A DNA stretch of 64,000 nucleotides from an uncultured Acidimicrobiales bacterium. Lineage in GTDB: Bacteria > Actinomycetota > Acidimicrobiia > Acidimicrobiales > SZUA-35. Below are positions 17,316 to 56,137 of the stretch, in pieces. The position numbers were made by a program, and so were the translations under genes. How positions within the stretch are numbered: the first letter of the stretch is position 1; each line of letters begins with the position of its first letter. The stretch spans positions 1 through 64,000 of the forward strand of contig CALIFY010000066.1 in the NCBI GenBank assembly GCA_938021675.1. The letters run 5' to 3'. The notes under the pieces were generated by a model, which worked only from the letters and a program-made list of their open reading frames with translations, was not told the DNA's origin and made no database searches.

Positions 17316-17411
17316 CCCCAACAATCCTACAGATGGATCGTGCTCCAATGCCCGCAGGAGACATGAGTCCATGTCCGCATAGGCAGCAAAACCGGCAGTA
17401 CGCTCACCGTC

Positions 17412-19478: not shown

Positions 19479-19496
19479 ATGAGCAGAAGTTTGTGA
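19479..19496 (+). promoter_or_regulatory. Six-codon leader ORF coupled to the NRPS start
   Basis: ATG at 19479 is preceded by GGTGGGAGGG, the best ribosome-binding site in the region. The frame ATG AGC AGA AGT TTG TGA ends at 19496, and its stop overlaps the GTG at 19493 (GTGA), which starts the NRPS frame. The arrangement suggests the NRPS is translated by re-initiation after this mini-ORF. The alternative is that the ribosome-binding site serves an unrecognised start. Confidence 0.45.
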
Positions 19497-22400
19497 CACC
19501 AAGCGACAACGCCGACGGCACCGACAGCAAGCCCGAGCACAAGAACCCCGAGCACAAGAACAAGACCGAAGGCCAAGCCACACACGGCCGCGATACCGGT
19601 GGTGGCCGGAACCGCATCCGAGCCGCCCTCCTCGGTGAGGAGTCACTTCTGGTGCAATGCGGCGAGATGCTCCGCCACAGCGGCATCGAGGTTTCGGTGG
19701 TGGCGTCCAACGACGACGAGATCGCCGCCTGGGGCGCATCAGCAGGCATTCCGGTCGTCGCCAACGATGAAGACCTCGGCCCATCGCTGGCCCGGTTCTC
19801 GTTTGACTACCTATTCAGCATCACCAACCTTCGGATCGTGCCAGACGACGTGTTGGCCATGGCCCAAAAGATGGCGATCAACTTTCACGACGGCCCGCTT
19901 CCGGCATACGCCGGTCTCCATGCCACGACCTGGGCGATTCTGCACAACGAGACACGCCATGGCGTGTCGTGGCATGTGATGGAATCCGGGGTGGATCGAG
20001 GCGACCTTCTGGCCACCGCATCGTTCCCGATCGCGCCGGATGACACGGCATACACGCTCAACGTCGCCTGCTACGAACACGCCATTTCGTCGTTCGATGC
20101 CCTCGTGAACCAACTGGCGAACGGCACCGAAACTCGGACGCCACAGGAACCCTCAGCTCGCTCTTATTTCGGTCGGTACGACCGGCCACCGGCGATGGCC
20201 ACCATCGATTGGGCATCGCCGACCGATCACATCTCGGCGCTGGTCCGTGGCCTCGACTTCGGCCACCACGCCAACCCGTTGGCCAGGGCTCGGGTGTTGG
20301 TCGGCGACCATCCGATCGTTGTGGCTACCGTGTCCCATTCCGATCGCGCCGTGGAGGACAAGAGCCCGGGCACGGTGGTGGCTATCGACGACGGCGTGGT
20401 ATTCGTCGCCGCCTCCGACGGAGTGGTCGGCCTGGCCACCGTCGTCAACCACGACGGCCGCCCGGTAGCCGCCGCCGATGCCCTCACCAGGGCTGGTGTC
20501 ACCGTCGGGGATCGACTGCCGCTCCTGTCGCCGGAGCAAGCCGATGCGCTGAGCGCGTTGAACGCCGAACTCTGCCGTCACGAACCGGCGTGGGTGTCCG
20601 AGCTCGACGGCGTAGCGCCGCTCGACTTGCCGTACCCCCGAGCGCTTGGTGAGGCGGCCGCAACGATCGTCACCACCGACCTACCCCTGTCCACCCCGGC
20701 CCGAAACGCCCTTGACCGCCGGGGCGACGCCACCGACAAAACGGCGGTCGTCGCCGCGGCGTTCGCCTGCTATCTGGCCAAGCTCACCGGCGCCGGCCCG
20801 TTCCATCTCAGTGTCGGCGGCACTTCGGACGTCGATCCATCGCTCGCACCCTGGATTTCCCCTCGTGTGCCCCTCCGCTCCCCGAGCCTTCCCGAAACAG
20901 CGACCATCGCCGATGCCATCGATGCTCAAGGCAACGCCCTAGCCAAGGCCGTTGACCGAAAAGGGTTCGCCTCCGACCTTGCGTTTCGCTATCCGCGCCT
21001 ACGGTCTCATACCGCCGAGACCGGACTTCTGCCGTCGATCGGAATCGACATCGGCGATGGTCCGGTCGACGAGACGTTGGATCTGAGCCTGGTCATCGAC
21101 TCGGCCAACGACCGGCTCCGGTGGCGGCGGAACACGGCGTCGTACTCCACCGATGTGTTCGACCGGATGGAAACGCAGTTTCTGGCCGTCCTGGATCAGT
21201 TTTTGTCCGACGGCTCGTCCCCGTTGGCCGAGCTGAACCTACTGACCGAAAACGAGCGCCGACAGATCGTTGTCGACTGGAACGACACTGCGGTCCCGGT
21301 AGACGGCGACCCCACCATCGCCGCCGCCTTTGCCGCTTGTGCGGCCCGCAATGGTCAAGCGACGGCGCTGGTTCATGGGTCGGTATCGCTAACCTACGCC
21401 GACCTCGACGCTCGATCTACCCAGGTGGCCAACCGCCTGAGTCAACTCGGTGCGGGTCGAGGCGCATTCGTCGGCATCTTCACCGACCGCGGCGTCGACA
21501 TGGTGGTGGCGTTGCTGGCCACGCTGAAGGTCGGAGCGGCCTATGTACCGCTCGATCCGACGTATCCGGCGGACCGAATCGCCTTCATGATCGCCGATGC
21601 TGATCTGTCGGTCATCGTTTCGCAGTCGACCGTGGTCGACCAACTACCGGACTACGACGGTCCCATCCTGTCGCTCGACGATGAGGTCGACCGCATCGCC
21701 GCTCTATCTACAAGCATGCCTACAAGCATGACCGAGGATAGGTCGGGCGGCGCCGACCTGGCGTACCTCATATATACGTCCGGTTCTACCGGCACGCCGA
21801 AAGGCGTCAAGGTCACAAACGCCAACGTGATCAACTTCTTGGCCGGCATGGATGATCACATCGAGCACCGATCGGGCGATGCGTGGCTCACCGTCACCAG
21901 CTTGTCGTTCGATATTTCGGTGCTGGAAATTTTCTGGTCGTTGACGCGAGGGCTCAAGCTGGTGGTCTACGCCGGCGAACCCAGCCGATCGATCGAGCAC
22001 GGACGGGTAGACGAAACCCATCGGGCATCGCCGGTTGGGGCCACGAACCGACCCCTCGGGTTCAGCCTGTTCTATTTCGCGTCGGACGACGGCCAGTCCG
22101 ATGGAGGCGACAAGTACGAACTCTTACTCGAAGGTGCTCGCTTCGCCGACCAACACGGCTTCGAAGCGGTCTGGACGCCGGAACGTCACTTCCATGCCTT
22201 TGGTGGGCTCTACCCCAACCCCTCGGTGACGAGTGCGGCCATCGCCACCATCACCGAACGAGTCAAGATCCGGGCCGGCAGCTGTGTCGTGCCATTGCAT
22301 CATCCGGTTCGCGTCGCCGAAGAGTGGGCGGTGGTCGACAATCTGTCGAAGGGCAGGGTCGGCATAGCGTTTGCCGCCGGCTGGCAGCCCGTCGACTTCG

Positions 22401-24379
22401 TGCTCAAACCGGAGAACTTCGGAGATCGAAAGGCGGCGGTGGCCCGCGATGTCGACATCGTCAAACGACTATGGCGAGGCGAGACGGTAACCATGGACGG
22501 ACCGAACGGTCCGACCGACGTCTCCACCCTGCCCCGTCCCGTCCAGGCCGAACTCCCCACCTGGTTGACCGTGGCCGGCAACCCGGACACCTTCGCCGCT
22601 GCCGGTACCGGCGGTCACAACGTGTTAACCCATCTGCTGGGCCAAACGGTCGATGAGCTTGCCGAAAAGATCGGCGTCTATCGAGCGGCCAGGAAAGCGG
22701 CCGGCCACGCCGGCGATGGCCACGTCACCCTCATGGTTCATACCTTGATCGGCGACGACGTCGACGAGGTTCGAGAACTGGTCCGGCCCCCGATGACCGA
22801 CTATCTACGATCCTCCCTCGCCCTGATAAAGGAGGCGGCCTGGAGTTTCCCTACCTTCAAACAGCGAGCGGCGGACAGCGGGCGAAGTCCGCTCGACATC
22901 TTCGACGACCAGGATCTGAACGAGCAAGAGATGGAGGCGCTGCTCGAACACGCCTTCAACCGGTACTTCGATGGAAGCGCCCTGTTCGGCACCCCCGAAA
23001 GCTGCCGGGAGATGGTCGACCACCTCCGCCGAGTCGGGGTTGATGAAGTCGCCTGCCAGGTCGACTTCGGATTACCGGCCGAGGTCGTTCTCAGCCGGCT
23101 TCCCCACCTCGACTCTTTGAAGACCTACGCCACGCCGCCCGAGGCCGACCGGGTCGAACCATCGAGCCCGCAGGATCACCCCGACGACCGGACGATCCCC
23201 GCCCTAATCGAACGCCACGCCATCACCCACTTCCAATGCACGCCATCGATGGGCAGCATGCTGATCGCCGACGACCGGTTCCGCCGGGTCGCACCCCGGT
23301 TGAAGATGTGTTTGATGGGCGGCGAAACCTTCCCTCAAACACTGGCGAAAGAGATTACCGACATCGTCGACGGCACGGTCCTCAACGTGTACGGGCCAAC
23401 CGAGACAACCATCTGGTCATCGGTTCAACGGGTAGACAACGGCGACCGACCGGTATCGATCGGGCGACCGCTGGCCAACCAACAGATGTACGTCGTCGAC
23501 CGCGATCTACAACCGGTTCCGCTCGGCGTGCCCGGCGAGCTACTGATCGGTGGCGACGGCGTGACCGACGGTTACCTCGACCGACCCGAACTCACCGCCC
23601 AACGATTCGTGTCAGACCACTTCCGAACCGATCGACCAGACGCACGTCTGTATCGAACCGGTGACCTCGTCCGGTACGAGGCAAACGGCGCCATCGAGTT
23701 CCTCGGTCGAATGGACTTCCAGGTCAAGGTTCGCGGACACCGCATCGAGCTCGGTGAAATCGAGACGAGGCTAAACGACTATCCAACCATTCGGGAAGCG
23801 GTGGTCGTGGCCCGAGAAGATACACCCGGCGACCAACGGTTGGTGGCCTATGTCATCCCCAGCCCTGGGGTGGCGGTCGATGGCGGTATCGACCCCGACG
23901 CCCTTCGAGACCACCTCGGCCAACACCTTCCCGAGTTCATGGTCCCAGCCCACTACGTGACGCTCACCCGATTTCCGCTCACGCCAAATAAGAAAACCGA
24001 CCGAAACGCCCTTCCTCCTCCCCACACGCCACCGGTTTCCTCGGGAGCGAACTATGTTGCGCCGACGGCCGGGGTCCAACACGACCTGGTCGACATCTGG
24101 CAGGACCTGCTGGGCGTGGCCAAGGTCGGGGTCGATGACAACTTCTTCGACCTCGGCGGCCACTCGCTGCTGGCGGTGCAGCTCCACCGCCACATCACGT
24201 CGACTCTCGGTTCGGAGCTGTCGATCACCGACGTCTTCCGTTTCCCGACGATCGCCTCGCTGACCGACCATCTCGATCATCGCGGCAAGGCCACCGAGGT
24301 CGCGGCGGCCAAGGCCAGCGACCGAGCCGATTCCCGACGCCAAGCTATGAAGGCCCGTCGCACCCGGAGGCGCACATGA
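19493..24379 (+). CDS. NRPS: formyltransferase - partial C - A with inserted LLM monooxygenase - T
   Basis: The 1628-residue synthetase starts at GTG 19493. Residues ~45-330 form a methionyl-tRNA-formyltransferase-like domain with INFHDGPLP (N130, H132) and the D in MESGVDRGDLL. Residues ~370-600 are only the C-terminal lobe of a condensation domain, without HHxxxDG. The A domain begins near 615 (LIYTSGSTGTPKG; LSFDIS). Between core motifs A4 and A5, residues ~855-1212 form a luciferase-like FMN monooxygenase of the MupA/Atu3671 type (GFSLFYFASDD...WTPERHFHAFGGLYPNP). Motifs A5-A10 resume at NVYGPTETT; the T domain has LGGHSLL. The pocket code reads DILQLGVIWK, close to glycine codes. It couples to the PKS by ATGA. 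Confidence 0.9.
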   Translation: MTPSDNADGTDSKPEHKNPEHKNKTEGQATHGRDTGGGRNRIRAALLGEESLLVQCGEMLRHSGIEVSVVASNDDEIAAWGASAGIPVVANDEDLGPSLARFSFDYLFSITNLRIVPDDVLAMAQKMAINFHDGPLPAYAGLHATTWAILHNETRHGVSWHVMESGVDRGDLLATASFPIAPDDTAYTLNVACYEHAISSFDALVNQLANGTETRTPQEPSARSYFGRYDRPPAMATIDWASPTDHISALVRGLDFGHHANPLARARVLVGDHPIVVATVSHSDRAVEDKSPGTVVAIDDGVVFVAASDGVVGLATVVNHDGRPVAAADALTRAGVTVGDRLPLLSPEQADALSALNAELCRHEPAWVSELDGVAPLDLPYPRALGEAAATIVTTDLPLSTPARNALDRRGDATDKTAVVAAAFACYLAKLTGAGPFHLSVGGTSDVDPSLAPWISPRVPLRSPSLPETATIADAIDAQGNALAKAVDRKGFASDLAFRYPRLRSHTAETGLLPSIGIDIGDGPVDETLDLSLVIDSANDRLRWRRNTASYSTDVFDRMETQFLAVLDQFLSDGSSPLAELNLLTENERRQIVVDWNDTAVPVDGDPTIAAAFAACAARNGQATALVHGSVSLTYADLDARSTQVANRLSQLGAGRGAFVGIFTDRGVDMVVALLATLKVGAAYVPLDPTYPADRIAFMIADADLSVIVSQSTVVDQLPDYDGPILSLDDEVDRIAALSTSMPTSMTEDRSGGADLAYLIYTSGSTGTPKGVKVTNANVINFLAGMDDHIEHRSGDAWLTVTSLSFDISVLEIFWSLTRGLKLVVYAGEPSRSIEHGRVDETHRASPVGATNRPLGFSLFYFASDDGQSDGGDKYELLLEGARFADQHGFEAVWTPERHFHAFGGLYPNPSVTSAAIATITERVKIRAGSCVVPLHHPVRVAEEWAVVDNLSKGRVGIAFAAGWQPVDFVLKPENFGDRKAAVARDVDIVKRLWRGETVTMDGPNGPTDVSTLPRPVQAELPTWLTVAGNPDTFAAAGTGGHNVLTHLLGQTVDELAEKIGVYRAARKAAGHAGDGHVTLMVHTLIGDDVDEVRELVRPPMTDYLRSSLALIKEAAWSFPTFKQRAADSGRSPLDIFDDQDLNEQEMEALLEHAFNRYFDGSALFGTPESCREMVDHLRRVGVDEVACQVDFGLPAEVVLSRLPHLDSLKTYATPPEADRVEPSSPQDHPDDRTIPALIERHAITHFQCTPSMGSMLIADDRFRRVAPRLKMCLMGGETFPQTLAKEITDIVDGTVLNVYGPTETTIWSSVQRVDNGDRPVSIGRPLANQQMYVVDRDLQPVPLGVPGELLIGGDGVTDGYLDRPELTAQRFVSDHFRTDRPDARLYRTGDLVRYEANGAIEFLGRMDFQVKVRGHRIELGEIETRLNDYPTIREAVVVAREDTPGDQRLVAYVIPSPGVAVDGGIDPDALRDHLGQHLPEFMVPAHYVTLTRFPLTPNKKTDRNALPPPHTPPVSSGANYVAPTAGVQHDLVDIWQDLLGVAKVGVDDNFFDLGGHSLLAVQLHRHITSTLGSELSITDVFRFPTIASLTDHLDHRGKATEVAAAKASDRADSRRQAMKARRTRRRT

Positions 24380-27300
24380 CCGACACCGACGACCACCAAT
24401 TCTCCGACGCCGACATCGCCATCGTCGGGATGGCCCTGCGGGTCCCGGGAGCAAACGACGTAGACCAGTATTGGGCCAACCTTCGAGATGGGGTCGAGTC
24501 GGTCCGTCCGTTGAGCGACGATGAGTTGCGGGATGCTGGGGTCTCCGACCGTGAACGGTCGAACCCTCGCTACGTGGCCATGGGCGCACCGATGGACGAC
24601 GTCAAAGGGTTCGATGCAGCCCTGTTCGGGTTCAGCCCCCGAGACGCAGCGATCATGGACCCCCAGCATCGCCACTTCATCGAAGTGTCGTGGGAGGCCC
24701 TGGAACACGCCGGCTACGACCCGGCCGGCTACGACGGCTCCATCGGTGTGTTCGGCGGCTCCGGCCACAACGCCTACATGGCCTACAACCTGTTGACCAA
24801 CCCCGACCTGATGGAGTCGGTCGGGTTCTTCCTCGTTCGCCACACCAGCAACGACAAAGACTTTCTCGTCACCAGGGCCTCCTATTTGTTCGACTTGACC
24901 GGACCAGCGGTCAATGTGCAAACGGCATGTTCGACCTCGTTGGTCGCCGTTCACATGGGCGCCCAAAGCCTGTTGAACGGCGAGTCCGACATGGTGTTAG
25001 CCGGAGGGGTCACCATAGATATGCCCCTCGATCGTGGATACGTTCACGAGCCGGGCGAGATCCTCTCCGCCGACGGTCACTGCCGAGCCTTCGACGCCCG
25101 TTCCAGCGGCACCGTGTTCGGGAGCGGTGCCGGTGTGGTCGTCCTCAAACGCCTCGACGACGCCATGGCCGACGGCGACACGATCCATGCCGTGATTCGA
25201 AGCACCGCCATCAACAACGACGGCTCCAACAAGGTCGGGTATCTCGCTCCATCGGTCGACGGTCAAGCGGCCGCCGTCAGCGAAGCCATCGCCCTGGCCG
25301 ACATCGACCCGGAGACGATTGGCTATGTCGAGTGCCACGGCACCGGTACCGAGATCGGCGACCCGATCGAAGTCGCTGCGCTTACCGAAGCGTTCAGAGC
25401 TCACACCGACCGGTCCGGCTACTGCGCAATCGGCTCGGTCAAAACCAATATCGGTCACCTCGATACGGCGGCCGGAGTGGCCAGCTTGATCAAGGCAACC
25501 CTGGCGCTTTCCCACGAGGCGATTCCCCCGACCGTCCATTTCGAGGCCCCGAACCCGCGAATCGATATGGAGTCAAGCCCGTTTTTCGTAAACGCCGAGC
25601 TGCGACCGTGGCCGGCAGGAGACTCGCCCCGCCGGGCCGGAGTGAGTTCGCTCGGGGTAGGTGGCACGAACGCCCACATAATTCTTGAAGAGGCCCCGGC
25701 GGTCCCACCACCGGCCGACTCTCGGCCGTTGCAACTGCTGACGCTGTCGGCCAAAGGGCCGACGGCTCTCGACGCGGCGACCGCCAACCTCGCCGACCAC
25801 TTGACCGACTCACCGCACCTCGACGTGGCCGATGTGGCCCATACCCTCCGCACCGGCCGACGCCAGCTCGAAAAACGCCGATTCGCTGTCGTTGCCGATA
25901 CAGCCGACGCCGCCGCCGTGCTCACAGGGTCAGAGCCGACCCGACTGGTCAACGGTACGGTCGAGCCGAGCGACCGATCGGTCGTCTTCCTCTTCCCTGG
26001 CCAGGGGGCCCAATACGCCGGGATGGGTCAAGGCCTCTACCGCTCGGAGACGGTTTTTCGCGACTGCGTCGACGAATGCGCCAACCTGCTCCAGCCCACC
26101 CTCGGGCTCGATCTTCGAACCGTTCTGTTCCCCGACGGCGGCACCGATACAGCGCTGACTGCGTGGGCCGACGATCAGCTGAAGCAGACGGCGATTACAC
26201 AACCGGCGCTGTTCACCATCGAGTACGCCATGGCCCAGCTCTGGATGAGTTGGGGTGTCACACCGACGGCGTTGATCGGGCACAGTATCGGTGAGTACAC
26301 CGCAGCGTGTGTGGCCGGGGTGCTGTCGCGTTCGGATGCCCTCGATCTCGTCGCGGCCAGAGGCCGGCTCATGCAAGAGTTGCCTGCGGGGTCGATGTTG
26401 GCCATTCCACTCTCCGCCGATCGCGTCGCCGAGTACCTAGGCGACGGTCTGAGCCTGGCGGCCAAGAACGGTCCGGACTTCTGTGTCGTTGCCGGGCCGG
26501 ACGACACCGTCGACGTACTGCAAGCCAAACTGGAAGGCGAGGACCTGGCGGTCCGCCGCCTCCACACCAGTCACGCGTTCCACAGCGCCATGATGGACCC
26601 GATACTCGCCCCCTTTGCCGAGGTGGTGGCGTCGACGAAACGTTCGGATCCCGACATCGCCTACGTCTCAAACGTGTCCGGCACGTGGATCACCAACGAA
26701 CAGATCGCCGACCCCCACTACTGGTCGAGTCATATTCGGTCGACCGTGGACTTTGTTGGCGGTCTGGACACCATCCTTGCTACCGACCCCGAGGCTGTGC
26801 TTTTGGAGGTTGGTCCTGGCCGGGCCTTGAGCACGTTCGCCAAACAACTCGAAGGCCCGCACGGCAAGATGGTGGCCACATCGATGCGACCACCGAAATC
26901 GAACGGCGCTGCCGACAGCGATGATCTGGCGGTTGCCCTTCGAACCCTCGGCGAGTTGTGGACCACCGGCGCTCTTGCCGATTGGGCCCCGTTCACCGGC
27001 GACGAGACACGACGGCGCATTCCACTACCGACGTATCCATTCCAGCACCAGGACTATTGGGTCGAACCCGGTCAACAAATACAAACCACCGCAGATCGCA
27101 CCGGTGGGCTCGACAAACTGACCGACGTCGATGACTGGTTCTGGGAGCCGGCCTGGACGCAGACCCCGGGACCTACCCCCCGGACGTCCGATGATGGGCC
27201 CGACCGCTGGCTGGTCTTCTCCAGCGACGGCCCGCTCGGCCACTCGGTAGTCGAACGCCTCAGTCAAACGAGCGACGTCACGGTGGTGTCCAAGGGAGCG

Positions 27301-30060
27301 GACTACCGCTCCGGCGACAGCCGGTTCGTTATCGACCCGGCAGACCCGGATCACTATCTGCAGTTGATACGACAACTCGCAGAGTCGGGCCAGACGCCCG
27401 ATGCCATCGCCTACCTCTGGCCCCTCGATGCCTCAGCCACACTCGATCCCGCCGAGGCGGAGTTCGTTTCGGCTCACGTCGATACGTTCTATGGGCCGCT
27501 TAGCTTGGTGAAAGCGTTGGCCGCCGAAGGAGGCGATGAGCGGATCGAGTGGTGGACGGTCACCGCCCGCCAACACGCCATCGGCGGCGACCCGACGGTC
27601 GACCCGACCCAAGCCCTGACCCTTGGCCCCACGCTCGTAGTCGGACGGGAACAGCCGACGATGGCCGCCGGCTCGCTGGACGTCGGGGAGCTGGCCACGC
27701 TCGAACGGGAGGCGAACGTCGATGCGGCGGCGCTGATGATCGTCGCCGAGTTTCGGGCCGGGGTCAACGACGCCATCGTTGCCCACCGGGGCCGAAGCCG
27801 ATGGGTCCGCCGTCATATGCCCGCCCCGCTCCCGACCGAGGAAGCAACGGGTACGCCGATCACCGAACACGGTGTCTATCTCATCACCGGCGGGCTGGGC
27901 GGCATCGGCCTCGCCCTCGCCGAGCACCTCGCTACCACGGCCAAGGCCCGACCGGTTCTCGTATCGCGCACCGCCCTCCCCGAACGCAGCCGGTGGGAAC
28001 ACATCATCGGTTCGGGTGACGACACCAGGTTGGCCCGGATCCTCAGCCGAATCGTCGCCATGGAGTCATCTGGTACCGACGTCATGATCGCCACCGCCGA
28101 TGTCAGCGATCGTGTAGCGATGGCCGCCGTCGTAGAAGAAGTCCTCGACCGGTTCGGAACCATCGACGGCGCCTTCCACGCCGCGGGGCAACTGGCCGAC
28201 GGCCTGATGGCCACCAAAGAGCCAGCGGACGCCGGACCGGTACTGGCGGCGAAGGTGTCGGGCGCGCTAGTACTCGAAGCGGCCCTGGCCGAGGTCGACA
28301 TCGATTTCATCGCGTTGTTCTCGTCGACCAGCGCCGTTGTCGGCAACGCCGGCCAGGCCGACTATGCGGCCGCCAACGCCTTCCTGAACGCGTTGGCCAA
28401 CCGGCGTACCCTCGATAGCGGTCGCCGAACGATCGCCGTCGGTTGGGGACCATGGTCCGAGGTCGGAATGACCGCTCGCACCGCGGTGGAGCGCGGCCTG
28501 CTCGATGACGTAGAGCGCCTCACCCCGGTCGATCACCCATTGCTCGATCGGTGGTTTCGAGGGGAAGGGGCCACCGGCGACGTGTTCGAGACCGACCTCG
28601 CTCCCGACCGTCATTGGCTGCTCGACGAGCACCGCACTCGGCAAGGCACCGCGTTACTTCCCGGCACCGGCTACCTCGATTTGGTTCGGGCCGCACTCAG
28701 CAGTCGACACCCCGACCGAAACGCTGCGGGGAACACCGTCGAGATGACCGACGTGATGTTTCTCGCCCCGTTCATGGCTACCGGTGACGACGACGGCCAG
28801 CGGACATCGATCCGAGTGAGTTTCGAGCCTGATTCCGGGAGCTTTGTCGTCTCCAGTGGGACAACCGGCGCCGAGCAGGAACACGCCAGAGGCCACATCG
28901 AGTACCGGTTGTCGGCCGGAGACCCAGGGCGTATCGACATCGAACCCATCCGAGTCAGGTGCGATAAACGAACAACCGAATTCGTCGATCGATACGAACA
29001 CGAGCAGCTGGCATGGGGACCGCGTTGGAACAATCTTCGCCGAGTCGACTATGGCGACAATGAAGCGCTTGCCACGCTGGCCCTTCCCGAACAGTTCGCT
29101 ACCGACCTGGCCGACCACCCGCTCCATCCGGCCGTGCTCGACCTCGCCACCGCCGGCGCCCAAGACCTGATCGTCGGATTCTCCGCCGACCTGGACTTCT
29201 TCGTGCCGTTCTCCTACGGCCGGTTGACCCACTACCGGCCGATGACCGAGCAGGTCTACAGCCATATTCGATATCGCACACCGACCGATCAAGACACCGC
29301 GGTGTTCGACATCACCATCGTCGACCCCGACGGAGCCATTCTGATCGAAATCGATGGGTTCACCATGCGGCGGGCCGCCGGCGAAATTGCCGCCGCCACC
29401 GGCGGAGCTGACGTCGATGTTCCCATCGACCCCTTGCTCGACAGCGTGACCAACGGCATCGGCACCGACGAGGGCATGGTCGCGCTCCGACGGGTGCTCG
29501 CCGCTCCGTCGGCGGTCGAGGTCGTCGTGACCGCCCAAGATCTCAAGGCACTGATTCGCCGGGCCGATGAGGAAGCGACGAACGAACCCGATGGCGGCGG
29601 CACCGGCATCTCCCATGAAAGACCAGACCTCTCGACGGCCTACGTCGAACCGACAACCGAACGCCAGCACGCCATCGCGGCGATCTGGGAGGACATGCTC
29701 GGTATCAGCGGTGTCGGCGTCCACGACGATTTCTACGAGCTTGGTGGACACTCGCTGCTCGTCACCCAATTGGGGGCCAGGGTTCGAAAGTTGTCTTCGG
29801 CTGCCGTGCCGCTTATGGCCTTGTTCGAAGCCTCGACCATCACCCAGCTCGGGGCGGCCATCGATGCCGCCGAAGAGGCGGCGTCCGCCAGTGGCGAAAC
29901 GAACACACCGAAACTGGCCGCCGTGTCGAGAGACGGCTACCGGATCCGTCGGGGCGTCCTCGGCGGTGCCCCGTCGACAGAGAATCCCTCGGTAGAGAAT
30001 CCCTCGGTAGAGAATCCCTCGGTAAAGAATCCCTCGGTAAAGAACAAGGAAGACGCATGA
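24376..30060 (+). CDS. Type I PKS module KS-AT-KR-DH-ACP
   Basis: The 1894-residue module has, in order: KS with TACSTS (C185), ECHGTGTE (H321) and NIGH (H361); AT with GHSIGEY (S637) and HAFHS, the malonyl-CoA signature; KR with GGLGGIG (~1171), FSSTSAVVG and QADYAAANAF; a DH-like hot-dog domain after the KR with DEHRTRQGTALLPGT (H~1419) and HPAVLDLAT; and ACP with LGGHSLL (S~1792). It would extend the starter by one malonyl unit, reduce the beta-keto group and possibly dehydrate it. The DH follows rather than precedes KR, and its HxxxGxxxxP motif has one extra residue. The C-terminus is a repeated NPSVE/KN tail. ATGA overlaps occur at both ends. Confidence 0.92.
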   Translation: MTDTDDHQFSDADIAIVGMALRVPGANDVDQYWANLRDGVESVRPLSDDELRDAGVSDRERSNPRYVAMGAPMDDVKGFDAALFGFSPRDAAIMDPQHRHFIEVSWEALEHAGYDPAGYDGSIGVFGGSGHNAYMAYNLLTNPDLMESVGFFLVRHTSNDKDFLVTRASYLFDLTGPAVNVQTACSTSLVAVHMGAQSLLNGESDMVLAGGVTIDMPLDRGYVHEPGEILSADGHCRAFDARSSGTVFGSGAGVVVLKRLDDAMADGDTIHAVIRSTAINNDGSNKVGYLAPSVDGQAAAVSEAIALADIDPETIGYVECHGTGTEIGDPIEVAALTEAFRAHTDRSGYCAIGSVKTNIGHLDTAAGVASLIKATLALSHEAIPPTVHFEAPNPRIDMESSPFFVNAELRPWPAGDSPRRAGVSSLGVGGTNAHIILEEAPAVPPPADSRPLQLLTLSAKGPTALDAATANLADHLTDSPHLDVADVAHTLRTGRRQLEKRRFAVVADTADAAAVLTGSEPTRLVNGTVEPSDRSVVFLFPGQGAQYAGMGQGLYRSETVFRDCVDECANLLQPTLGLDLRTVLFPDGGTDTALTAWADDQLKQTAITQPALFTIEYAMAQLWMSWGVTPTALIGHSIGEYTAACVAGVLSRSDALDLVAARGRLMQELPAGSMLAIPLSADRVAEYLGDGLSLAAKNGPDFCVVAGPDDTVDVLQAKLEGEDLAVRRLHTSHAFHSAMMDPILAPFAEVVASTKRSDPDIAYVSNVSGTWITNEQIADPHYWSSHIRSTVDFVGGLDTILATDPEAVLLEVGPGRALSTFAKQLEGPHGKMVATSMRPPKSNGAADSDDLAVALRTLGELWTTGALADWAPFTGDETRRRIPLPTYPFQHQDYWVEPGQQIQTTADRTGGLDKLTDVDDWFWEPAWTQTPGPTPRTSDDGPDRWLVFSSDGPLGHSVVERLSQTSDVTVVSKGADYRSGDSRFVIDPADPDHYLQLIRQLAESGQTPDAIAYLWPLDASATLDPAEAEFVSAHVDTFYGPLSLVKALAAEGGDERIEWWTVTARQHAIGGDPTVDPTQALTLGPTLVVGREQPTMAAGSLDVGELATLEREANVDAAALMIVAEFRAGVNDAIVAHRGRSRWVRRHMPAPLPTEEATGTPITEHGVYLITGGLGGIGLALAEHLATTAKARPVLVSRTALPERSRWEHIIGSGDDTRLARILSRIVAMESSGTDVMIATADVSDRVAMAAVVEEVLDRFGTIDGAFHAAGQLADGLMATKEPADAGPVLAAKVSGALVLEAALAEVDIDFIALFSSTSAVVGNAGQADYAAANAFLNALANRRTLDSGRRTIAVGWGPWSEVGMTARTAVERGLLDDVERLTPVDHPLLDRWFRGEGATGDVFETDLAPDRHWLLDEHRTRQGTALLPGTGYLDLVRAALSSRHPDRNAAGNTVEMTDVMFLAPFMATGDDDGQRTSIRVSFEPDSGSFVVSSGTTGAEQEHARGHIEYRLSAGDPGRIDIEPIRVRCDKRTTEFVDRYEHEQLAWGPRWNNLRRVDYGDNEALATLALPEQFATDLADHPLHPAVLDLATAGAQDLIVGFSADLDFFVPFSYGRLTHYRPMTEQVYSHIRYRTPTDQDTAVFDITIVDPDGAILIEIDGFTMRRAAGEIAAATGGADVDVPIDPLLDSVTNGIGTDEGMVALRRVLAAPSAVEVVVTAQDLKALIRRADEEATNEPDGGGTGISHERPDLSTAYVEPTTERQHAIAAIWEDMLGISGVGVHDDFYELGGHSLLVTQLGARVRKLSSAAVPLMALFEASTITQLGAAIDAAEEAASASGETNTPKLAAVSRDGYRIRRGVLGGAPSTENPSVENPSVENPSVKNPSVKNKEDA
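29979..30038 (+). repeat. 15-bp minisatellite, four copies, in PKS C-terminus
   Basis: The unit agagaatccctcggt is present three times, then aaagaatccctcggt once, in perfect head-to-tail order. A partial fifth copy follows. It is in frame, so each unit adds five residues (ENPSV or KNPSV) to the tail just before the next synthetase. Copy-number change would alter linker length without a frameshift. Confidence 0.9.
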
Positions 30061-33000
30061 CCGACGAACGCGAAACCCACCAGAGTGCTGACGAAGAAGT
30101 GCTGGCCTTCCCCGCTTCGTTCGCCCAACAGCGGTTGTGGTTCGTCGACCGGTTGGAACCCGGCACCGCGGTGTACAACATCCCGTACCACCACCAGACT
30201 CGACTCCGCGGTCCCCTCGATATCGAAGCGCTTCAGGCCGCGGTGTCGCAACTGATCGACCGGCATGAGACCCTGCGAACCACCTTCGCTACCGTCGACG
30301 GTGAACCGGTACAGGTCATCAGCGACCCCGGGATGGCCAACGGTCAGCAACAGATGGTCGTGATCGATCTCCGTCACCTTCCTGCCGCGGAGCGGGAGTC
30401 GGAGATGCGCCGCATCGTCGAGGCCGAATCTCGCCACTCGTTCGACCTCACCACCGGACCGCTTTTCTATACCAAACTCATCGTGCTCGACGACCACGAT
30501 CACGTCTTTGTCCAAATGATGAGCCACATCGTGGTCGATGGGCTTTCTGTCGAATTCGTCATCGACGAACTCGAAGAGTTCTATCGGGCAGCCGTCGCCG
30601 GTCGGGCTCCGGCCATCGACGATCTACCGCTACAGTACGCCGATTTCGTGATCTGGCATCGGCAATGGATGGAGTCGGCCGAGCCAGCCGGTCAGCTCGA
30701 CTACTGGAGGGACCAGCTGGCGGGTCGGCTCCCGGTGATGGCCCTGCCAACCGATCGGCCACGGCCGGCGATTCAACGGAACCGCGGCTCGTGGGAAGCG
30801 GTCGACTTCCCGCCCGACGTCATCGAACAACTCAAGGAGCTTTCGAAGGCCGAAGGCGTCTCGCTGTACATGACGATGCTGGCTGCCTTCAACGTGCTCC
30901 TCCATCGCTATACCGGCCAAGACGATCTGCTGGTCGGAACGCCCACCGGAAGCCGAAACCAGCCCGAACTCGAGCGGTTGATCGCCTTTTTCGTCAATCC
31001 GGTGGTGCTCAGATCCGACCTCTCCGGCACCCCCAGTTTCACCGATCTGCTCCACGAGGTTCGGGCCACCACCATGGGGGCGCTCGGCAACCAAGATGTG
31101 CCGTTCGAACGGCTGGTGGAAGAGCTGCGACCGGAACGAGATCTCAGCCACAATCCGCTGTTCCAGGTCAGCTTCACGTTACAGATGGCGCCACCGCTGT
31201 TGCGGTTGGACGGCACCACCGTCGAAGCGGTCGAGTTCGACAATGGGACGTCAAAGTTCGACCTGCTCGCCGAACTCTGGGAGGACGCCGGCGGTGTCAA
31301 GGGCCGGTTCGAATACGACACCGATCTGTTCGACCGTTCCACGGTGCAGCGGATGATCACCAACTACGAGGTGCTCCTCCGCTCGATCGCCGCCAATCCA
31401 ACGTCGACGGTCCGCGACCTCGACCTGGTAGCGGATGCCGAGCGGGCCCAGACCGCGACCTGGAACGACACCGGGACGGACTACGACAACACGGCGACCG
31501 TCCACGGGCTGATCGAGGCAGCGGCCGCCACCTTCGGTGACCACGTGGCCGTTATCGCCGACGACCGCCGACTGACGTACCGGCAGCTCGATACCGAAGC
31601 CAACCGATTCGCTCGGTATCTCGTCGACCGAGGTGTCACCCCGAGGGCAACGGTCGGCCTGAGCGTGCGCCGATCGGCCGACATGATGGTGGCCTTGCTC
31701 GGAATCCTTAAGGCCGGGGCCGTCTACCTACCGCTCGATCCCGACTATCCGACCGAGCGGTTGGCGTTCATCCTGTCCGATGGCGACGCGGTGATGCTGA
31801 TCACTCAAGATGACCTCGTCGACCGCTTCGAGGCCTACGACGGCCCCGTGGTGTCGGTGGACGGCGACCGATCGATCATCGACGAGCTGGCCGGATCTTC
31901 GCCGCTGGTCCCCATCGGCGCCGACGACCTGGCGTACGTCATCCATACCTCCGGTTCGACCGGACTCCCGAAGGGGGTCAACGTCCGGCACCGAAACGTG
32001 GTGAACTTCCTCACCTCGATGGCCGATACCCCCGGGCTCGACAGCGGTGATGTCCTTCTGGCCGTCACAACGCTGTCGTTCGACATCGCCGTGCTCGAGT
32101 TGTATCTCCCGCTGATTCGAGGGGCGACGGTGGTCGTCGCCGGACCCGAAGTTCAGACGTCGGGCGAGGCGTTGGCTCGAACACTTTCGTCGGAACAGGT
32201 CACCGTGATGCAGGCCACTCCGGCATCGTGGAAACTCCTTCTCGGGAGCGGCTGGGCCGGCAAGTCGGACCTCCGAGTCCTGTGCGGTGGCGAGCTGCTC
32301 CCCCGCGACCTCGCCGAGGAACTTCTCCCTCGATGCTCCGAGCTATGGAACATGTACGGTCCGACCGAGACCACCGTGTGGTCGGCGGCCCGGCGGGTCA
32401 CCTCCGGCGACGGGCCGGTTCCCATCGGCGGCCCGATCGCCAACACACAACTCCACGTGCTCGACGCCAACCTTCAGCCGGTACCGATCGGTGTTGCCGG
32501 CGAACTCTGCATCGGCGGCGACGGCGTGGCCGCCGGATACCACGACCGTGACGAGCTGACGGCCGACCGGTTCGTCAGCAACCCGCTCGTCGACCGCAAC
32601 GATGACAAGGGCAACAACGACACCCTGTATCGCACCGGCGATTCCTGCCGGTACCGCCTCGACGGCACTATCGAATTTCTCGGCCGTATAGATCTGCAGG
32701 TCAAGGTTCGGGGATTCCGGATCGAGCTTGGCGAAGTCGAGAGCGTGCTCGACCGCCATGACGGGGTGAAGGAGGCGGTCGTGACCGCCCAGCCCGATCC
32801 GAGCGGAGACAACCGACTCGTGGCCTACGTGATCCCGACCACCGACGAAGGACCCGACGCCGCGACGCTCCGCCACCACCTGGCGTCATCGTTGCCGGCA
32901 TACATGGTGCCAACGCTGTTCGTGCCGATGAGTGAGTGGCCGCTCACGAACAACGGCAAGATCGACCGGCGCGCCCTACCAGATCCCGACCTCACCGAGT

Positions 33001-33308
33001 TAGCGGGACGCACCGACCGGACCCTTCCCCGCACCGACACCGAACGAGGTATCGCTGAGATCTGGTCACAGCTCCTGGGCATCAGCGAGATCGGGGTCGA
33101 AGATAACTTCTTCGAGCTTGGCGGCCATTCGCTTCTCGCCGCTCAGATCATGACCAAGGTCAACGACGTCTTCGGGGTGGCCGTTCCCCTCCCAGAACTG
33201 TTCGCCGACCCAACGGTGGCCCACCTGGCCGACCGGGTCGGCACCGCCGGGCTACTCGTCGATCTCGACATCGGTGGCGAAGACGACCGCGAGGAGTTCG
33301 TACTGTGA
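30057..33308 (+). CDS. NRPS module C-A-T, glycine-like specificity code
   Basis: The 1083-residue module starts with a condensation domain (FAQQRLWFVDRL; active-site MSHIVVDG, where the first His is Ser but the catalytic second His and the Asp are kept). The A domain has VIHTSGSTGLPKG, LSFDIAVLE, NMYGPTETTVW and LTNNGKIDRRAL. The T domain has ELGGHSLLAAQ. Pocket residues by alignment with GrsA read DILQLGMVWK, again a glycine-type code. It should join glycine to the PKS-extended chain. The C-terminal tail is acidic (DLDIGGEDDREEFVL) and probably serves as the docking motif for the TubC-type domain of the next protein. GTGA overlap with the next gene. Confidence 0.92.
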   Translation: MTDERETHQSADEEVLAFPASFAQQRLWFVDRLEPGTAVYNIPYHHQTRLRGPLDIEALQAAVSQLIDRHETLRTTFATVDGEPVQVISDPGMANGQQQMVVIDLRHLPAAERESEMRRIVEAESRHSFDLTTGPLFYTKLIVLDDHDHVFVQMMSHIVVDGLSVEFVIDELEEFYRAAVAGRAPAIDDLPLQYADFVIWHRQWMESAEPAGQLDYWRDQLAGRLPVMALPTDRPRPAIQRNRGSWEAVDFPPDVIEQLKELSKAEGVSLYMTMLAAFNVLLHRYTGQDDLLVGTPTGSRNQPELERLIAFFVNPVVLRSDLSGTPSFTDLLHEVRATTMGALGNQDVPFERLVEELRPERDLSHNPLFQVSFTLQMAPPLLRLDGTTVEAVEFDNGTSKFDLLAELWEDAGGVKGRFEYDTDLFDRSTVQRMITNYEVLLRSIAANPTSTVRDLDLVADAERAQTATWNDTGTDYDNTATVHGLIEAAAATFGDHVAVIADDRRLTYRQLDTEANRFARYLVDRGVTPRATVGLSVRRSADMMVALLGILKAGAVYLPLDPDYPTERLAFILSDGDAVMLITQDDLVDRFEAYDGPVVSVDGDRSIIDELAGSSPLVPIGADDLAYVIHTSGSTGLPKGVNVRHRNVVNFLTSMADTPGLDSGDVLLAVTTLSFDIAVLELYLPLIRGATVVVAGPEVQTSGEALARTLSSEQVTVMQATPASWKLLLGSGWAGKSDLRVLCGGELLPRDLAEELLPRCSELWNMYGPTETTVWSAARRVTSGDGPVPIGGPIANTQLHVLDANLQPVPIGVAGELCIGGDGVAAGYHDRDELTADRFVSNPLVDRNDDKGNNDTLYRTGDSCRYRLDGTIEFLGRIDLQVKVRGFRIELGEVESVLDRHDGVKEAVVTAQPDPSGDNRLVAYVIPTTDEGPDAATLRHHLASSLPAYMVPTLFVPMSEWPLTNNGKIDRRALPDPDLTELAGRTDRTLPRTDTERGIAEIWSQLLGISEIGVEDNFFELGGHSLLAAQIMTKVNDVFGVAVPLPELFADPTVAHLADRVGTAGLLVDLDIGGEDDREEFVL

Positions 33309-35992
33309 GCGACACGCTCGAATATCTCACCGAGCTTCGGGAACGCGGGTTCGTTATCGCCCTTACCGACGATGGCGAAAACTTGAAGATCAACGCGCCG
33401 AAGAATCATCTCGACCCGGCAACCCGATCCGAACTCGGAAACCGGAAGAGCGAGATCATCGCCTTCCTGCACCAGGCGACGGCGGTAGCCGAACAGTCGA
33501 TCCCCCCGATCGAGCCACGCCATCCCGATGCGCCGCTGCAGTTGTCGGCCGCACAGGAACGGATCTGGAAGCTCTACCGTCTCGACCGGGACGGGACCGG
33601 ATTGAACATCGCGGTGCCGTGGCGGCTTCGGGGCAGCTTGAATATCGACGTACTCGAAGCTGCGCTGGCCGATGTGGTGAGTCGACACGAAACGCTGCGC
33701 TGCCGGTTTGGTGGTGGCAACGAACCCGACGCCAGCCCGATCTCGATGACCGACGATGCCGCCATCACCGTCGAACGGTATGACACGACGTCCGAACCAT
33801 CGACCGACGAGCCGGTGACCGTCGCTCAGCGCATGGCCGACGCCTTCGCCAACCGGCCGTTCGACCTCACCGCCGAGGTGGCTCGGGCGGCGGTGATCGA
33901 GATCGGTCCCGACGACCACCTTCTACTTCTGGTGTTCCATCAGATCGTGTTCGATTGGGGTGCAGCCCTCCCGCTCATCGACGATCTGGCCACCAGCTAC
34001 CAACGTCGGCTCGACGGTGATGAGGGGCGCGCTGAACCACCGGCCATCGGCTACCTAGACTTTGCCGCCTGGCAACAGACCTGGTTGACCGGTGATGGCC
34101 CGGAACCCCACAAGGCGTATTGGTCGGATCAGCTCGATCGGCCATACCGGTCGCTTCTCTTGCCGGGGTCTTCGATCTCCGTCACACCGGACGCGTCCAC
34201 CGCCACTCCCCTTCCATTCCACCTCGACTTCGAAACGGGCCAGGGACTGGCCCAACTGAGCCGATCGGCCGGCGCCACCCTCTATATGACGTTGCTCGGA
34301 GCGTGGCAGTCGCTCCTTGCCGCCTATGGCCAGGGCGATGAGGCCATCGTCTATTCGCTTCTGAATCTGAATCGACCGGAGCTGAAGGAGCTGATCGGGT
34401 TGTTCGCCAACCCGCTCCCGGTCCGCGTTGACCTCGATGGCGACCTCACCGCGACGGGCGTCATCGAGCGGGTCAGCGCTGCCGCCCTTGGTGCCTACAG
34501 CCACCAAGACCTCCCGCTTGAGGAGGTCATGGCCCACTTCACCGCCGACCCCGAGAGCACATCCGGTCCGTTCCAAGCCTTGTTCATTTTCCAACACCAG
34601 CCGACGCCGACGCTTCGGCTCGGTGACGCGGTCGGCGAGTTGCTAACCGTCGGCGCCCACGCCGCCGGGTTCGATCTCCGCTTGTTTGCCGAAGAAGCCG
34701 ACGACGGAATTCGAGGGTGGCTTGAGTTCGACAGCGGACGGTGCGACCCGCTGGCCGCCGAACGGCTGCTCGATCAGTACACCGGTCTCCTGTCGGCTAT
34801 GGCGAAACGACCAGGTGCTCCCATGGCTTCGCTGATGCCGGTGACGGACGCAGATCGGGCCGCCGCCGCGGCGGAGGAGACGGCACCGCGGACCGCCGAC
34901 GCTTCTTTCGTCGAACCTCGAAACGATCGAGAACGTGAGCTTGCAGCGCTGTGGTCCGAACTCTTCAAGCGTGAGGTGGGTATCGACGACAACTTTTTCT
35001 CCCTCGGTGGCTATTCGTTGCAGGCGGTGAAGATGATGGCCGATATCGAGGCATCGACGGGCCGGGCGTTGCCGCTGGCAACCCTGTTTCAAGCCCCGAC
35101 AATCCGCGCCCTGGCCGACATCATCGACCGAGACGGGTACAAGTTGTCGTGGACGTCGCTCGTCCCGATAAAGGAGTCGGGGGCAAAGCCGCCCATCTTC
35201 TGTGTCGCCGCGCTCGGTGATGAGATCATTCAGTTCGGGGAACTCGCCGACCTGCTCGACGACGATCAGCCGTTCTACGCTCTCCAGCAGGGCCTCGAAC
35301 GAACCGACGAGATTCGGACGTCCATCCCAGCGATGGCATCCCACTACTTGTCGGAGATCCGAACGGTGCAACCCGTCGGCCCCTACCTCATCACCGGGTA
35401 TTGCTTTGGCGCTCTCGTGGCTTACGAGATGGCACAACAACTCGACGCCTCAGGAGAGACATACTCGCTGATCTCGATCGAGGGCGAGGCCCCGGGCGGG
35501 ATCTACACCGACAAGCGATCGAACACCGAGCGCCTGACCACGATGGCGGCCGTGCTCATCAAAGGCGGCCCGGGCAATGCCTTACGCTACGCAAAGAAGC
35601 GGATCGCTCGACTGTGGCAATTCGGACCGTGGACCCGGCTCCGACACATCCTCCACCGCGGATTCGAACGAACCGGTCTTCCCGTACCGGAGACGCTTAA
35701 GGACGTACTCCAGATCAATGCCCAGGCCGCAAACGAGTACGCCAATATCATCCCTCGTCGAGACGGCGACTTACTGCTCCTACGGGCAGAAACGACCACT
35801 CCAGGCTTCGTCTATCAAGAACAGCTTGGGTGGGACCGCTACGTCGATGGCGACATCCACACCCATTGGATCCCTGGCGACCACGAAGGCATCTGGAAGT
35901 CACCGAACGTTCAAGTATTTGCCAAGAAACTTGAACAGGTGATCGATGAAAGCCGGAGCGGATTGGGGGCCGGACCAGATGCACACAGTTAG
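33305..35992 (+). CDS. Terminal NRPS: docking - C (altered) - T - thioesterase, no A domain
   Basis: The 895-residue protein begins with a TubC-like N-terminal docking domain (residues ~1-55: LTELRERGFVIALTDDGENLKI...LGNRKSEIIAFL). The condensation domain follows, but its active site reads FHQIVFDW, so the catalytic second His is Gln and the Gly is Trp. There is no adenylation domain. The T domain has SLGGYSLQAV (Ser near 571). The thioesterase has GYCFGA with Cys 700 at the nucleophile position and GDHEGIW for the His. Release of the chain by hydrolysis, cyclisation or transfer is expected. The C domain may be inactive, may only gate transfer, or may be loaded in trans. Confidence 0.9.
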   Translation: MSDTLEYLTELRERGFVIALTDDGENLKINAPKNHLDPATRSELGNRKSEIIAFLHQATAVAEQSIPPIEPRHPDAPLQLSAAQERIWKLYRLDRDGTGLNIAVPWRLRGSLNIDVLEAALADVVSRHETLRCRFGGGNEPDASPISMTDDAAITVERYDTTSEPSTDEPVTVAQRMADAFANRPFDLTAEVARAAVIEIGPDDHLLLLVFHQIVFDWGAALPLIDDLATSYQRRLDGDEGRAEPPAIGYLDFAAWQQTWLTGDGPEPHKAYWSDQLDRPYRSLLLPGSSISVTPDASTATPLPFHLDFETGQGLAQLSRSAGATLYMTLLGAWQSLLAAYGQGDEAIVYSLLNLNRPELKELIGLFANPLPVRVDLDGDLTATGVIERVSAAALGAYSHQDLPLEEVMAHFTADPESTSGPFQALFIFQHQPTPTLRLGDAVGELLTVGAHAAGFDLRLFAEEADDGIRGWLEFDSGRCDPLAAERLLDQYTGLLSAMAKRPGAPMASLMPVTDADRAAAAAEETAPRTADASFVEPRNDRERELAALWSELFKREVGIDDNFFSLGGYSLQAVKMMADIEASTGRALPLATLFQAPTIRALADIIDRDGYKLSWTSLVPIKESGAKPPIFCVAALGDEIIQFGELADLLDDDQPFYALQQGLERTDEIRTSIPAMASHYLSEIRTVQPVGPYLITGYCFGALVAYEMAQQLDASGETYSLISIEGEAPGGIYTDKRSNTERLTTMAAVLIKGGPGNALRYAKKRIARLWQFGPWTRLRHILHRGFERTGLPVPETLKDVLQINAQAANEYANIIPRRDGDLLLLRAETTTPGFVYQEQLGWDRYVDGDIHTHWIPGDHEGIWKSPNVQVFAKKLEQVIDESRSGLGAGPDAHS

Positions 35993-36788
35993 AGGACGCA
36001 GGTTCAAACGACTTCCCATCGGCCTGGTAAACCAGACCCGGATGAGCGCCTTTCGACTGTACGGCATGCCGGGTGACCGGTCGTCGCTTCGAACGGCGTT
36101 TCTCCTCGGGCATATGCGTTCTGGCTCTTCGCTACTGACAAAACTCTTGTCTACGACACCAGAAGTACTCGAATTCGGCGAGCTCCACCTGAACTACCGT
36201 TCCAAATCCGACTTCACGGCGATGACCGGACGGCTGCTCTGGAAACGCCGCCAGGTACGGGTCGGCGATCACCAACGCATCGCTCTCGACAAACTGTTAC
36301 ACAACTATCAGTTACCGATTGAACGCTGCGAACTGCTTGTGACACACCAGGCACTTCCCATGATCCTCCTCAGGGAACCGGCACCGACCATCAGCAGCAT
36401 CGTTCGAACGTTTCGCAACTTTTCGAAAGATCGAGCTGTCGACTATTACATCGAACGAGTGAACATGCTCACCGAGTACGCTCGCACTTTAGGCCCAGAA
36501 ATAGACGTGCTGGGCATCGAATACGGCGACATTGTAGACCGAACAGATGCTCTCTTCGATAGCCTCACGAAACATCTTGGACTAGAGGAGAAACTCCGCC
36601 ATCAATATAGTCATACGGGCCCATACGGGCGAGCCGACCCATCCAAGAATCTTGCCACCGGACGCATCCTCACATCGGCGGAACGTTCATCTTCTCCGGG
36701 CAACACCTTCGACGTCGGCAGGGAAGCAGAACTGGCCCATCAAGAGTGCCGCTATGCCATGCGAACCCACTGCATTGCCGTCGGATAG
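35946..36788 (+). CDS. PAPS-dependent sulfotransferase
   Basis: This is a 280-residue (or 269 from ATG 35979) sulfotransferase. The phosphosulfate-binding loop is FLLGHMRSGSSLLTKLL and the 3'-phosphate-binding segment is MILLREPAPTISSIVRTF. It transfers sulfate from PAPS to a hydroxyl or amine. The reading frame starts 47 bp inside the final NRPS gene, with AGGTGA just before ATG 35946, so it belongs to the assembly-line operon. The released peptide/ketide is a reasonable acceptor; an envelope glycan is the alternative. Its codons look less GC-biased than those of the synthetase. Confidence 0.85.
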   Translation: MKAGADWGPDQMHTVRGRRFKRLPIGLVNQTRMSAFRLYGMPGDRSSLRTAFLLGHMRSGSSLLTKLLSTTPEVLEFGELHLNYRSKSDFTAMTGRLLWKRRQVRVGDHQRIALDKLLHNYQLPIERCELLVTHQALPMILLREPAPTISSIVRTFRNFSKDRAVDYYIERVNMLTEYARTLGPEIDVLGIEYGDIVDRTDALFDSLTKHLGLEEKLRHQYSHTGPYGRADPSKNLATGRILTSAERSSSPGNTFDVGREAELAHQECRYAMRTHCIAVG

Positions 36789-40647: not shown

Positions 40648-40653
40648 GGTCGG

Positions 40654-41316: not shown

Positions 41317-41431
41317 CGGGCCACCGCCTCGATCGTGTTTCGATCGACCGAACATCGCCGTTCCGGGGTCGAACGACCCAATCTCCGCCCGGCTGTTGAG
41401 CACGGTGGCCGCTGGTCATACTCTGGGATTA

Positions 41432-41477
41432 CCCACCGCTCCACGGTGGGAGTCGAGATGCCGGGTTTCGCGAAACC
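41432..41477. repeat. Two palindromes in a divergent promoter region
   Basis: CCCACCG and CGGTGGG form a 7-bp stem (41432-41450, loop CTCCA). A perfect 14-bp palindrome GGTTTCGCGAAACC follows at 41464-41477. Both are between the divergent SGNH and GT9 genes, where operators are expected. They could also fold in the GT9 mRNA leader. Confidence 0.5.
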
Positions 41478-41504
41478 GGGTACCAAAACATCGAGTACCA
41501 ATAC

Positions 41505-44946: not shown

Positions 44947-45124
44947 TGCGCGAACCGTCCCGTTTTTGTGACAGGCTCCCTCGTTGCCCGTCGCCCCACC
45001 ATACCGGGCAGGATTCTGTAGGGCCATGGTTGTTGAAGGAGCTAACCCACCTAAGTTCATGACCGTGCGACTAGGTCTTTTGGGTGATTTCCCACGAAGG
45101 CTGAAGCGGGAAACATCGGTTCGA

Positions 45125-52242: not shown

Positions 52243-52246
52243 CGGG

Positions 52247-54589: not shown

Positions 54590-54611
54590 CGGCCCTCCGG
54601 CAAAAAATGAC

Positions 54612-56078: not shown

Positions 56079-56137
56079 GCCAAAGTTGCGTGCGATGACT
56101 CGCCCCGGCGGGCGACGATCGGTTTCGGCGAGAGCGT

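Follow-up and report, generated by a model that had tools for sequence, protein, structure and literature searches.

Glycine-type modules that carry a flavin monooxygenase domain are represented by SolF, by MtaG of the myxothiazol pathway and by the corresponding module for melithiazol. In MtaG, the monooxygenase domain is located within the adenylation (A) domain. Formylating initiation modules of nonribosomal peptide synthetases (NRPSs) are known from linear gramicidin, where LgrA has an N-terminal formyltransferase (FT) domain in cis with A and thiolation (T) domains, and from oxazolomycin-type systems. One account (PMC10204066) reports an alpha-hydroxyglycine in solanimycin B, holds the monooxygenase-bearing glycine module SolF responsible for it, and describes hydroxylation that leads to cleavage in myxothiazol and melithiazol. 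Here we describe a five-gene hybrid NRPS/polyketide synthase (PKS) line, P0001 to P0005, in a 64,000-nucleotide stretch from an uncultured Acidimicrobiales bacterium (contig CALIFY010000066.1, positions 1 to 64,000; hereafter the window). Judged by gene content, the line sits inside a surface-polysaccharide locus, with polysaccharide genes on both sides. The kind of enzyme is known; its setting is unusual and conserved.

P0001 resembles the SolF, MtaG and melithiazol modules in being a glycine-type module with a flavin monooxygenase domain, but those modules elongate or terminate a chain, whereas P0001 starts one and adds an N-terminal FT and half a condensation (C) domain. It resembles LgrA, the best overall PDB match of P0001, in joining an N-terminal FT to A and T domains within the same protein. 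The FT domain alone, however, is nearer ArnA (3e-20) than LgrA (4e-5) among solved structures, and to our knowledge LgrA has neither a luciferase-like monooxygenase (LLM) nor a half C domain. The NCBI name MupA/Atu3671 family, given to LLM proteins that share TIGR04020 with P0001 and borne by six annotated plasmid relatives, covers the LLM domain only and does not contain the link to exopolysaccharide. A gene pair of Aliiroseovarius sp. M344 has the extended order of the window in two genes, FT-half-C-A[LLM]-T (A[LLM] being an A domain with an inserted LLM) followed by ketosynthase (KS)-acyltransferase (AT)-ketoreductase (KR)-dehydratase (DH)-acyl carrier protein (ACP)-C-A-T-thioesterase (TE). 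It differs in lying beside nos genes, with no docking or inactive C domain found and no sulfotransferase annotated nearby. The PKS gene Inhi_1972 and NRPS gene Inhi_1974 of Phaeobacter inhibens, named in PMC4062626, may be the conserved synthase pair described below. No product, characterised cluster of the same order or polysaccharide link for this family was found in Creative Commons-licensed literature, the coverage of which is incomplete.

A conserved unit in Rhodobacteraceae

The strongest claim that the evidence bears is that in Rhodobacteraceae the family forms a stable part of exopolysaccharide loci. In the host order, 4 of 297 other genomes contain strong FT-A relatives (E below 1e-50), and among 396 sampled genomes of the phylum the full FT-to-LLM length is matched in the host's own genome and in G232 only. 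One scan gave 19 loci, of which six (L034, L035, L037, L038, L041 and L042) carry FT-A[LLM]. The genome containing L035, Rhodobacteraceae bacterium HLUCCO07 (G666), belongs to the Rhodobacteraceae family that was then sampled, in which 110 of 295 genomes hold a match to FT-half-C-A[LLM]-T (E <= 1e-110); among the matches listed, 95 of 115 (93 genomes) span nearly the whole model. Two first-look candidates were scored per genome in the phylum and Rhodobacteraceae surveys, so that their counts are lower bounds.

Conservation of gene order was assessed over 20 kb around 20 Rhodobacteraceae matches, chosen by score or for their long contigs, with 20 control regions, taken from 17 of the 20 genomes, whose starts are 60 or 120 kb distant on the contigs that carry the loci. 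Loci were scored with labelled proteins from annotated plasmid loci of relatives. In all 20 loci the starter gene is accompanied by a partner protein with the order KS-AT-pseudoKR-KR-DH-ACP-TE, by a family 2 glycosyltransferase (GT2) of ~337 aa encoded between the two synthase genes, and by a phosphopantetheinyl transferase (PPTase) beside the FT-half-C-A[LLM]-T gene. Wzx is present in 16 loci, tyrosine kinase in 6, and Wzy-like and Wzz-like proteins in 12 and 10, respectively, the latter two labels resting on predicted membrane spans, the look of the sequence and similarity, not on Pfam. At least one polysaccharide-assembly class is present in 19 of the 20 loci compared to none of the 20 controls (Fisher p 3e-10); the twentieth locus holds glycosyltransferases, and one control holds a lone nucleotide-sugar-type match. 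Because the 20 loci share ancestry, this p value measures a conserved unit and not independent events.

A recurrent ~300 aa protein that looks SGNH-like by eye and has a GHSL-type start (seen among L123-L128 and L083-L102) lies near the pair in nine of the 20 loci; it could possibly be an acyl transferase or esterase. A related Aminobacter protein has no Pfam match, and a GDSL protein is encoded in the window at 40654-41403.

Nine plasmid loci were opened among the plasmid matches listed. In the six that are annotated (Ruegeria sp. SCSIO 43209, R. conchae, Parasedimentitalea marina, Paracoccus marcusii, Shinella zoogloeoides and Aminobacter sp. MSH1), the pair lies among flippase, sugar-transferase, export, ligase or kinase genes, with a PPTase annotated in four. 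Unannotated plasmids of Neorhizobium and Rhizobium grahamii have the same gene set as matched by homology, and the ninth locus is that of Aliiroseovarius sp. M344. On gene content, the family recurs in exopolysaccharide loci of the four Hyphomicrobiales records opened, with the window as a divergent member from another lineage. The Aminobacter locus carries a glycoside hydrolase family 9 (GH9) gene, like the window, although the two GH9 proteins are similar over a short stretch only. G232, from the same order as the host, has two family 4 glycosyltransferase (GT4) genes and a WecB-like gene ~10-13 kb upstream, and in G089 one flank carries GT4, GT2 and WecB-like genes and the opposite flank enolase. 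FT-half-C-A[LLM]-T proteins of Planctomycetota (L034, L038, L041 and L042) are 43-45% identical to that of the window.

A tree of 47 KS domains places the window KS inside a 33-row clade of relatives (support 100/98) that includes relatives outside polysaccharide loci and excludes the four KSs of another cluster in the host genome; its placement next to an Anaerolineae row is weak (86/50). Identity is 57-69% to clade members compared to 50-52% to the other KSs of the genome. Like the family, the window combines an FT-half-C-A[LLM]-T protein and a KS of this clade with a Wzx/Wzy-type locus, and its PPTase is one gene away, upstream rather than downstream as in relatives. The family trait of a KS...ACP protein fused to a Ser-type TE is absent, with P0003 and most of P0004 lying between ACP and TE. 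These comparisons indicate that the window line is a divergent family member, distinguished by an extra glycine module, a termination module without an A domain, a Cys TE and the lack of a partner GT2. The other cluster of the host genome (C5:30000-89999, L029-L031) is likewise a hybrid NRPS/PKS; it is large and has an LLM-bearing module of its own.

Organisation of the assembly line

Domains were called by Pfam and NCBIfam profile searches of the window proteins, judged against family cut-offs. An earlier note on this DNA had described four overlapping synthetase genes followed by a fifth gene, in the order FT-C'-A/LLM-T, KS-AT-KR-DH-ACP, C-A-T, docking-C*-T-TE. Both descriptions are confirmed: the list of open reading frames (ORFs) places all five genes on the + strand with successive overlaps of 4 bp (ATGA), 4 bp (ATGA), 4 bp (GTGA) and 47 bp, and the profile searches return the same domain order. 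The order, which that note had not recognised, is not isolated, with the core FT-half-C-A[LLM]-T and KS-AT-KR-DH-ACP recurring widely and the extended order present on the Aliiroseovarius plasmid.

P0001 extends over 19493..24379 (+). Its ORF opens at 19442, an alternative start, but the GTG at 19493 is plausible because a GGAGG-like sequence lies upstream of it. Formyl_trans_N/C, an AMP-binding domain split around the LLM, and PP-binding are recognised. The FT domain (19616..20536, +) has the motifs NFHDGPLP and WH..D.G, the Asn, His and Asp of which we take to be catalytic; both motifs are invariant across 9 aligned rows and are kept in 31 of 32 proteins picked by FT and LLM similarity, the exception being L089 with NFHDAPLP. 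The half C domain (20528..21301, +) is a C-terminal lobe that lacks the HHxxxDG lobe and corresponds to columns 186-464 of the C profile (hhalign probability 98.2%); it is also found in relatives, with weak conservation (19-27% identity). The MupA/Atu3671-family FMN-type LLM (22061..23122, +) lies inside the A domain and scores 490.8 bits with TIGR04020 (cut-off 244). The A-domain code, read by script from motifs, is DILQLGVIW. All 19 codes that were fully read among 31 rows, P0001 included, begin with DILQ, as do six more with two positions unread, while six rows, including P0003, were unparsed; we assume a code starting with DILQ to be a glycine pattern. P0001 is 42-45% identical to eight other aligned FT-half-C-A[LLM]-T members.

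P0002 (24376..30060, +) has the order KS-AT-pseudoKR-KR-DH-ACP, with KS, AT, KR, DH and ACP matched by Pfam and the KR and DH motifs kept (EHRT and HPAVLD in the DH); its AT motif, HAFH, is presumably that for malonyl. P0003 (30057..33308, +) is a C-A-T glycine module in which the C domain retains SHIVVDG and the A-domain code, read by eye, is DILQLGMVW. P0004 (33305..35992, +) consists of a TubC_N docking domain, a C domain, a T domain and a TE. The C domain motif is HHxxxDG, and P0004 has HQIVFDW at this position; with the catalytic His lost, this last C domain is probably inactive. Alignment of P0004 to the best plasmid NRPS genes gives two pieces that span ~4 kb for a 2.6 kb query, the extra length being that of approximately one A domain, and the likeliest reading of P0004 is a C-A-T-TE termination module from which the A domain has been lost. 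At the position where its TE carries Cys (GYCFGA), Ser is found in all 25 aligned relatives.

P0005 and the sulfotransferase label

P0005 (35946..36788, +), proposed earlier as a sulfotransferase finish to the pathway, is a sulfotransferase-like protein that exceeds the Pfam Sulfotransfer_3 cut-off (32 bits compared to 27) with a best stretch of just 32 residues. It has no NCBIfam match, PDB sequences contain nothing related to it (best E 0.54, unrelated) and a fold prediction from three rows was unusable (predicted local distance difference test 44.9). Homologues occur in 6 of 298 genomes of the host order, own included (three-row profile, 1e-8), and blastp at 1e-4 detects no homologue in the 20 Rhodobacteraceae loci. 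When five homologue neighbourhoods were compared with polysaccharide proteins, one had two matches beside the homologue, one had a GT4 and three had none. These results suggest that the sulfotransferase is not conserved with the assembly line; with two other sulfotransferases present in the window locus, the case for a dedicated sulfation step is weak.

Polysaccharide genes around the line

The line belongs to a co-directional run that begins with an Sfp/PptT-type PPTase (17412..18110, +; Pfam 4PPT_N 96 bits, plus ACPS), the sole 4PPT_N match over cut-off in the assembly; at 1e-10 it is matched in none of 4 sampled congeners compared to 10 of 26 other family members. Next is a UDP-glucose 4-epimerase (GalE)-like gene (18184..19185, +, ORF opening at 18037; TIGR01179 343.5 bits, cut-off 262.3), separated from P0001 by 256-307 bp depending on the P0001 start. 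The GH9 gene (36843..38822, +; Pfam Glyco_hydro_9) follows 55 bp past P0005. Divergent from the PPTase is a polysaccharide biosynthesis tyrosine autokinase (15552..17372, -; TIGR01007 133.9 bits, cut-off 108). Polysaccharide genes on the left encode a glycosyltransferase (2527-3894, +), Wzx-like (3882-5567, -), GT2 (5378-6373, -), Wzy (6561-7955, +), DegT (8561-9838, -), UDP-Glc dehydrogenase (9741-11051, -) and WbpM-like (11048-13003, -) proteins. Those on the right (39883..61650) encode sulfotransferase, GDSL, GT9, GT4, single-module NRPS, GT2, Wzy, kinase-like (below the NCBIfam cut-off), Wzx, a second sulfotransferase and RmlA/D/B proteins. The earlier statement that no dedicated exporter is visible overlooks the flippases, polymerases, chain-length kinase and glycosyltransferases of this locus. 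A 764-aa protein with a PASTA domain (13152-15446, -) also lies within it.

The second NRPS of the locus, P0008 (45649-49776, -), is a single C-A-T-TE module with a Cys thioesterase (GLCFG). A 1292-aa protein in the Paracoccus marcusii polysaccharide locus, beside a WecB-type glycosyltransferase, is colinear with it at 31% identity and shares the A-domain motifs FDVAxEE and TGSERVP; among the loci compared, FDVAxEE was seen in Paracoccus marcusii only. P0008 matches 706 plasmid records at 1e-80, of which two were opened: that of Nostoc is an ordinary NRPS cluster, and that of Phaeobacter has a polysaccharide setting. In the latter, Phaeobacter gallaeciensis plasmid pP63_e (68 kb), a 1455-aa NRPS (L157:14110-18477) has a polysaccharide pyruvyl transferase, a GT4, a rhamnose operon and an export gene as neighbours.

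Proposed product and competing explanations

A biosynthetic route can be proposed from the domain content. The PPTase would activate the carrier domains, the A domain of P0001 would load glycine as its code indicates, and the FT domain would formylate this glycine from 10-formyl-tetrahydrofolate, the chemistry of its family. The analogy with SolF suggests that the alpha carbon may be hydroxylated by the inserted LLM. P0002 would add one malonyl unit, reduce it and dehydrate it to give approximately a 4-formamido-(4-hydroxy)butenoyl chain, to which P0003 would add glycine. The T domain and Cys-type TE of P0004 would merely unload the chain, because its C domain appears inactive and its A domain is missing. 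Released or transferred, the acyl unit would then be carried as a non-sugar group on the polysaccharide that the surrounding Wzx/Wzy genes produce. The formylated, possibly hydroxylated Gly-ketide-Gly product of the earlier note thus keeps its basis in the FT starter and the two glycine-type A codes; the basis for its sulfation is weak. We consider it an evenly balanced proposition that the product of this compact line is a small N-formylated (hydroxy)glycyl-ketide-glycine unit reserved for exopolysaccharide; its attachment to the polymer is inferred from the conserved neighbourhood only.

Several observations weigh against this proposal. The link to polysaccharide is one of gene neighbourhood and not of chemistry, and the 20 loci, which come from one bacterial family, were selected by score or long contigs and were scored with labels from relatives, amount to one conserved unit. 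The partner GT2 has no match in the window at 1e-12, and in the loci of Shinella and Aminobacter, where the synthase genes diverge, it is not located between them. No polysaccharide genes were seen in the Aliiroseovarius sp. M344 locus and no polysaccharide neighbours at the Anaerolineae locus L033 or in G170. Nor were any found among six Pfam-scanned genes on the short Planctomycetota contigs, or on the short Sandaracinus contig as compared with window proteins only; FT-A[LLM]-T is present at these five loci (four of Planctomycetota), with no KS found on the short contigs, and they neither support nor exclude a polysaccharide role. The AT motif is HAFH in P0002 compared to xAAH in 25 relatives, so that the extender unit of the relatives is less sure. 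An empty-site test used five congeners with tyrosine-kinase homologues (57-67% identical). They share no colinear part of the locus, with single matches only, to a glycosyltransferase or UDP-glucose dehydrogenase, and no insertion site is therefore demonstrable.

The best-surviving alternative, which we consider unlikely but worth serious attention, is that the product is a free, secreted small molecule (a signal, matrix-associated metabolite or metallophore) whose genes merely share a location or regulation with the polysaccharide genes because both contribute to a biofilm lifestyle. A TE can release a free acid, the occurrence of relatives outside polysaccharide loci is consistent with this view, and mutanofactins are PKS/NRPS products tied to Streptococcus mutans biofilm (PMC11782227). 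Such a molecule would be harder to reconcile with the glycosyltransferase gene that separates the synthase pair in each of the 20 loci, and no small-molecule exporter or regulator was found in the 10 Pfam-scanned clusters, three without a Pfam match, among 14 recurrent neighbour clusters (in at least two of the 20 loci). It is improbable that a stand-alone cluster landed in the polysaccharide locus by chance, with P0005 tailoring a free product. The divergence of the window version, its extra modules, its own sulfotransferase and the unmatched partner GT2 would fit such an event, but its KS and FT-A[LLM] belong to a family found in polysaccharide loci, the PPTase, galE and GH9 genes flank the line on the same strand, and few genomes of the host order have a P0005 homologue, with no homologue detected in the 20 related loci. 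That the line is degenerate and inactive, as its half C domain, C* without catalytic His, last module without an A domain and Cys TE might suggest, is very improbable given that all five reading frames are intact across 17 kb, that the FT, LLM, A, KS, AT, KR, DH, ACP, P0003 C and TE domains keep recognisable motifs, and that the half C domain also occurs, though poorly conserved, in relatives.

Implications for bacterial surface chemistry

About one third of the sampled Rhodobacteraceae genomes carry an FT-half-C-A[LLM]-T gene. As a wider and more tentative proposal, which we hold with somewhat less than even confidence, there may be a class of surface polysaccharides with polyketide-peptide substituents that is widespread among marine roseobacters and extends to other phyla, in which the synthase pair, PPTase and GT2 would build and install an N-formyl glycyl-ketide group, the window line being an elaborated version with an extra glycine. 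If hydroxylated formylglycine collapses as in myxothiazol, this group would be a reactive glyoxylyl-derived aldehyde that could cross-link the matrix. Should the product prove to be bound to the polymer, the roseobacter matrix would include a group that sugar analysis misses, and genome miners would have counted a coat-building enzyme as a secondary-metabolite cluster. Instead of acting as a free antibiotic, the product of this assembly line may chemically decorate the bacterial coat.

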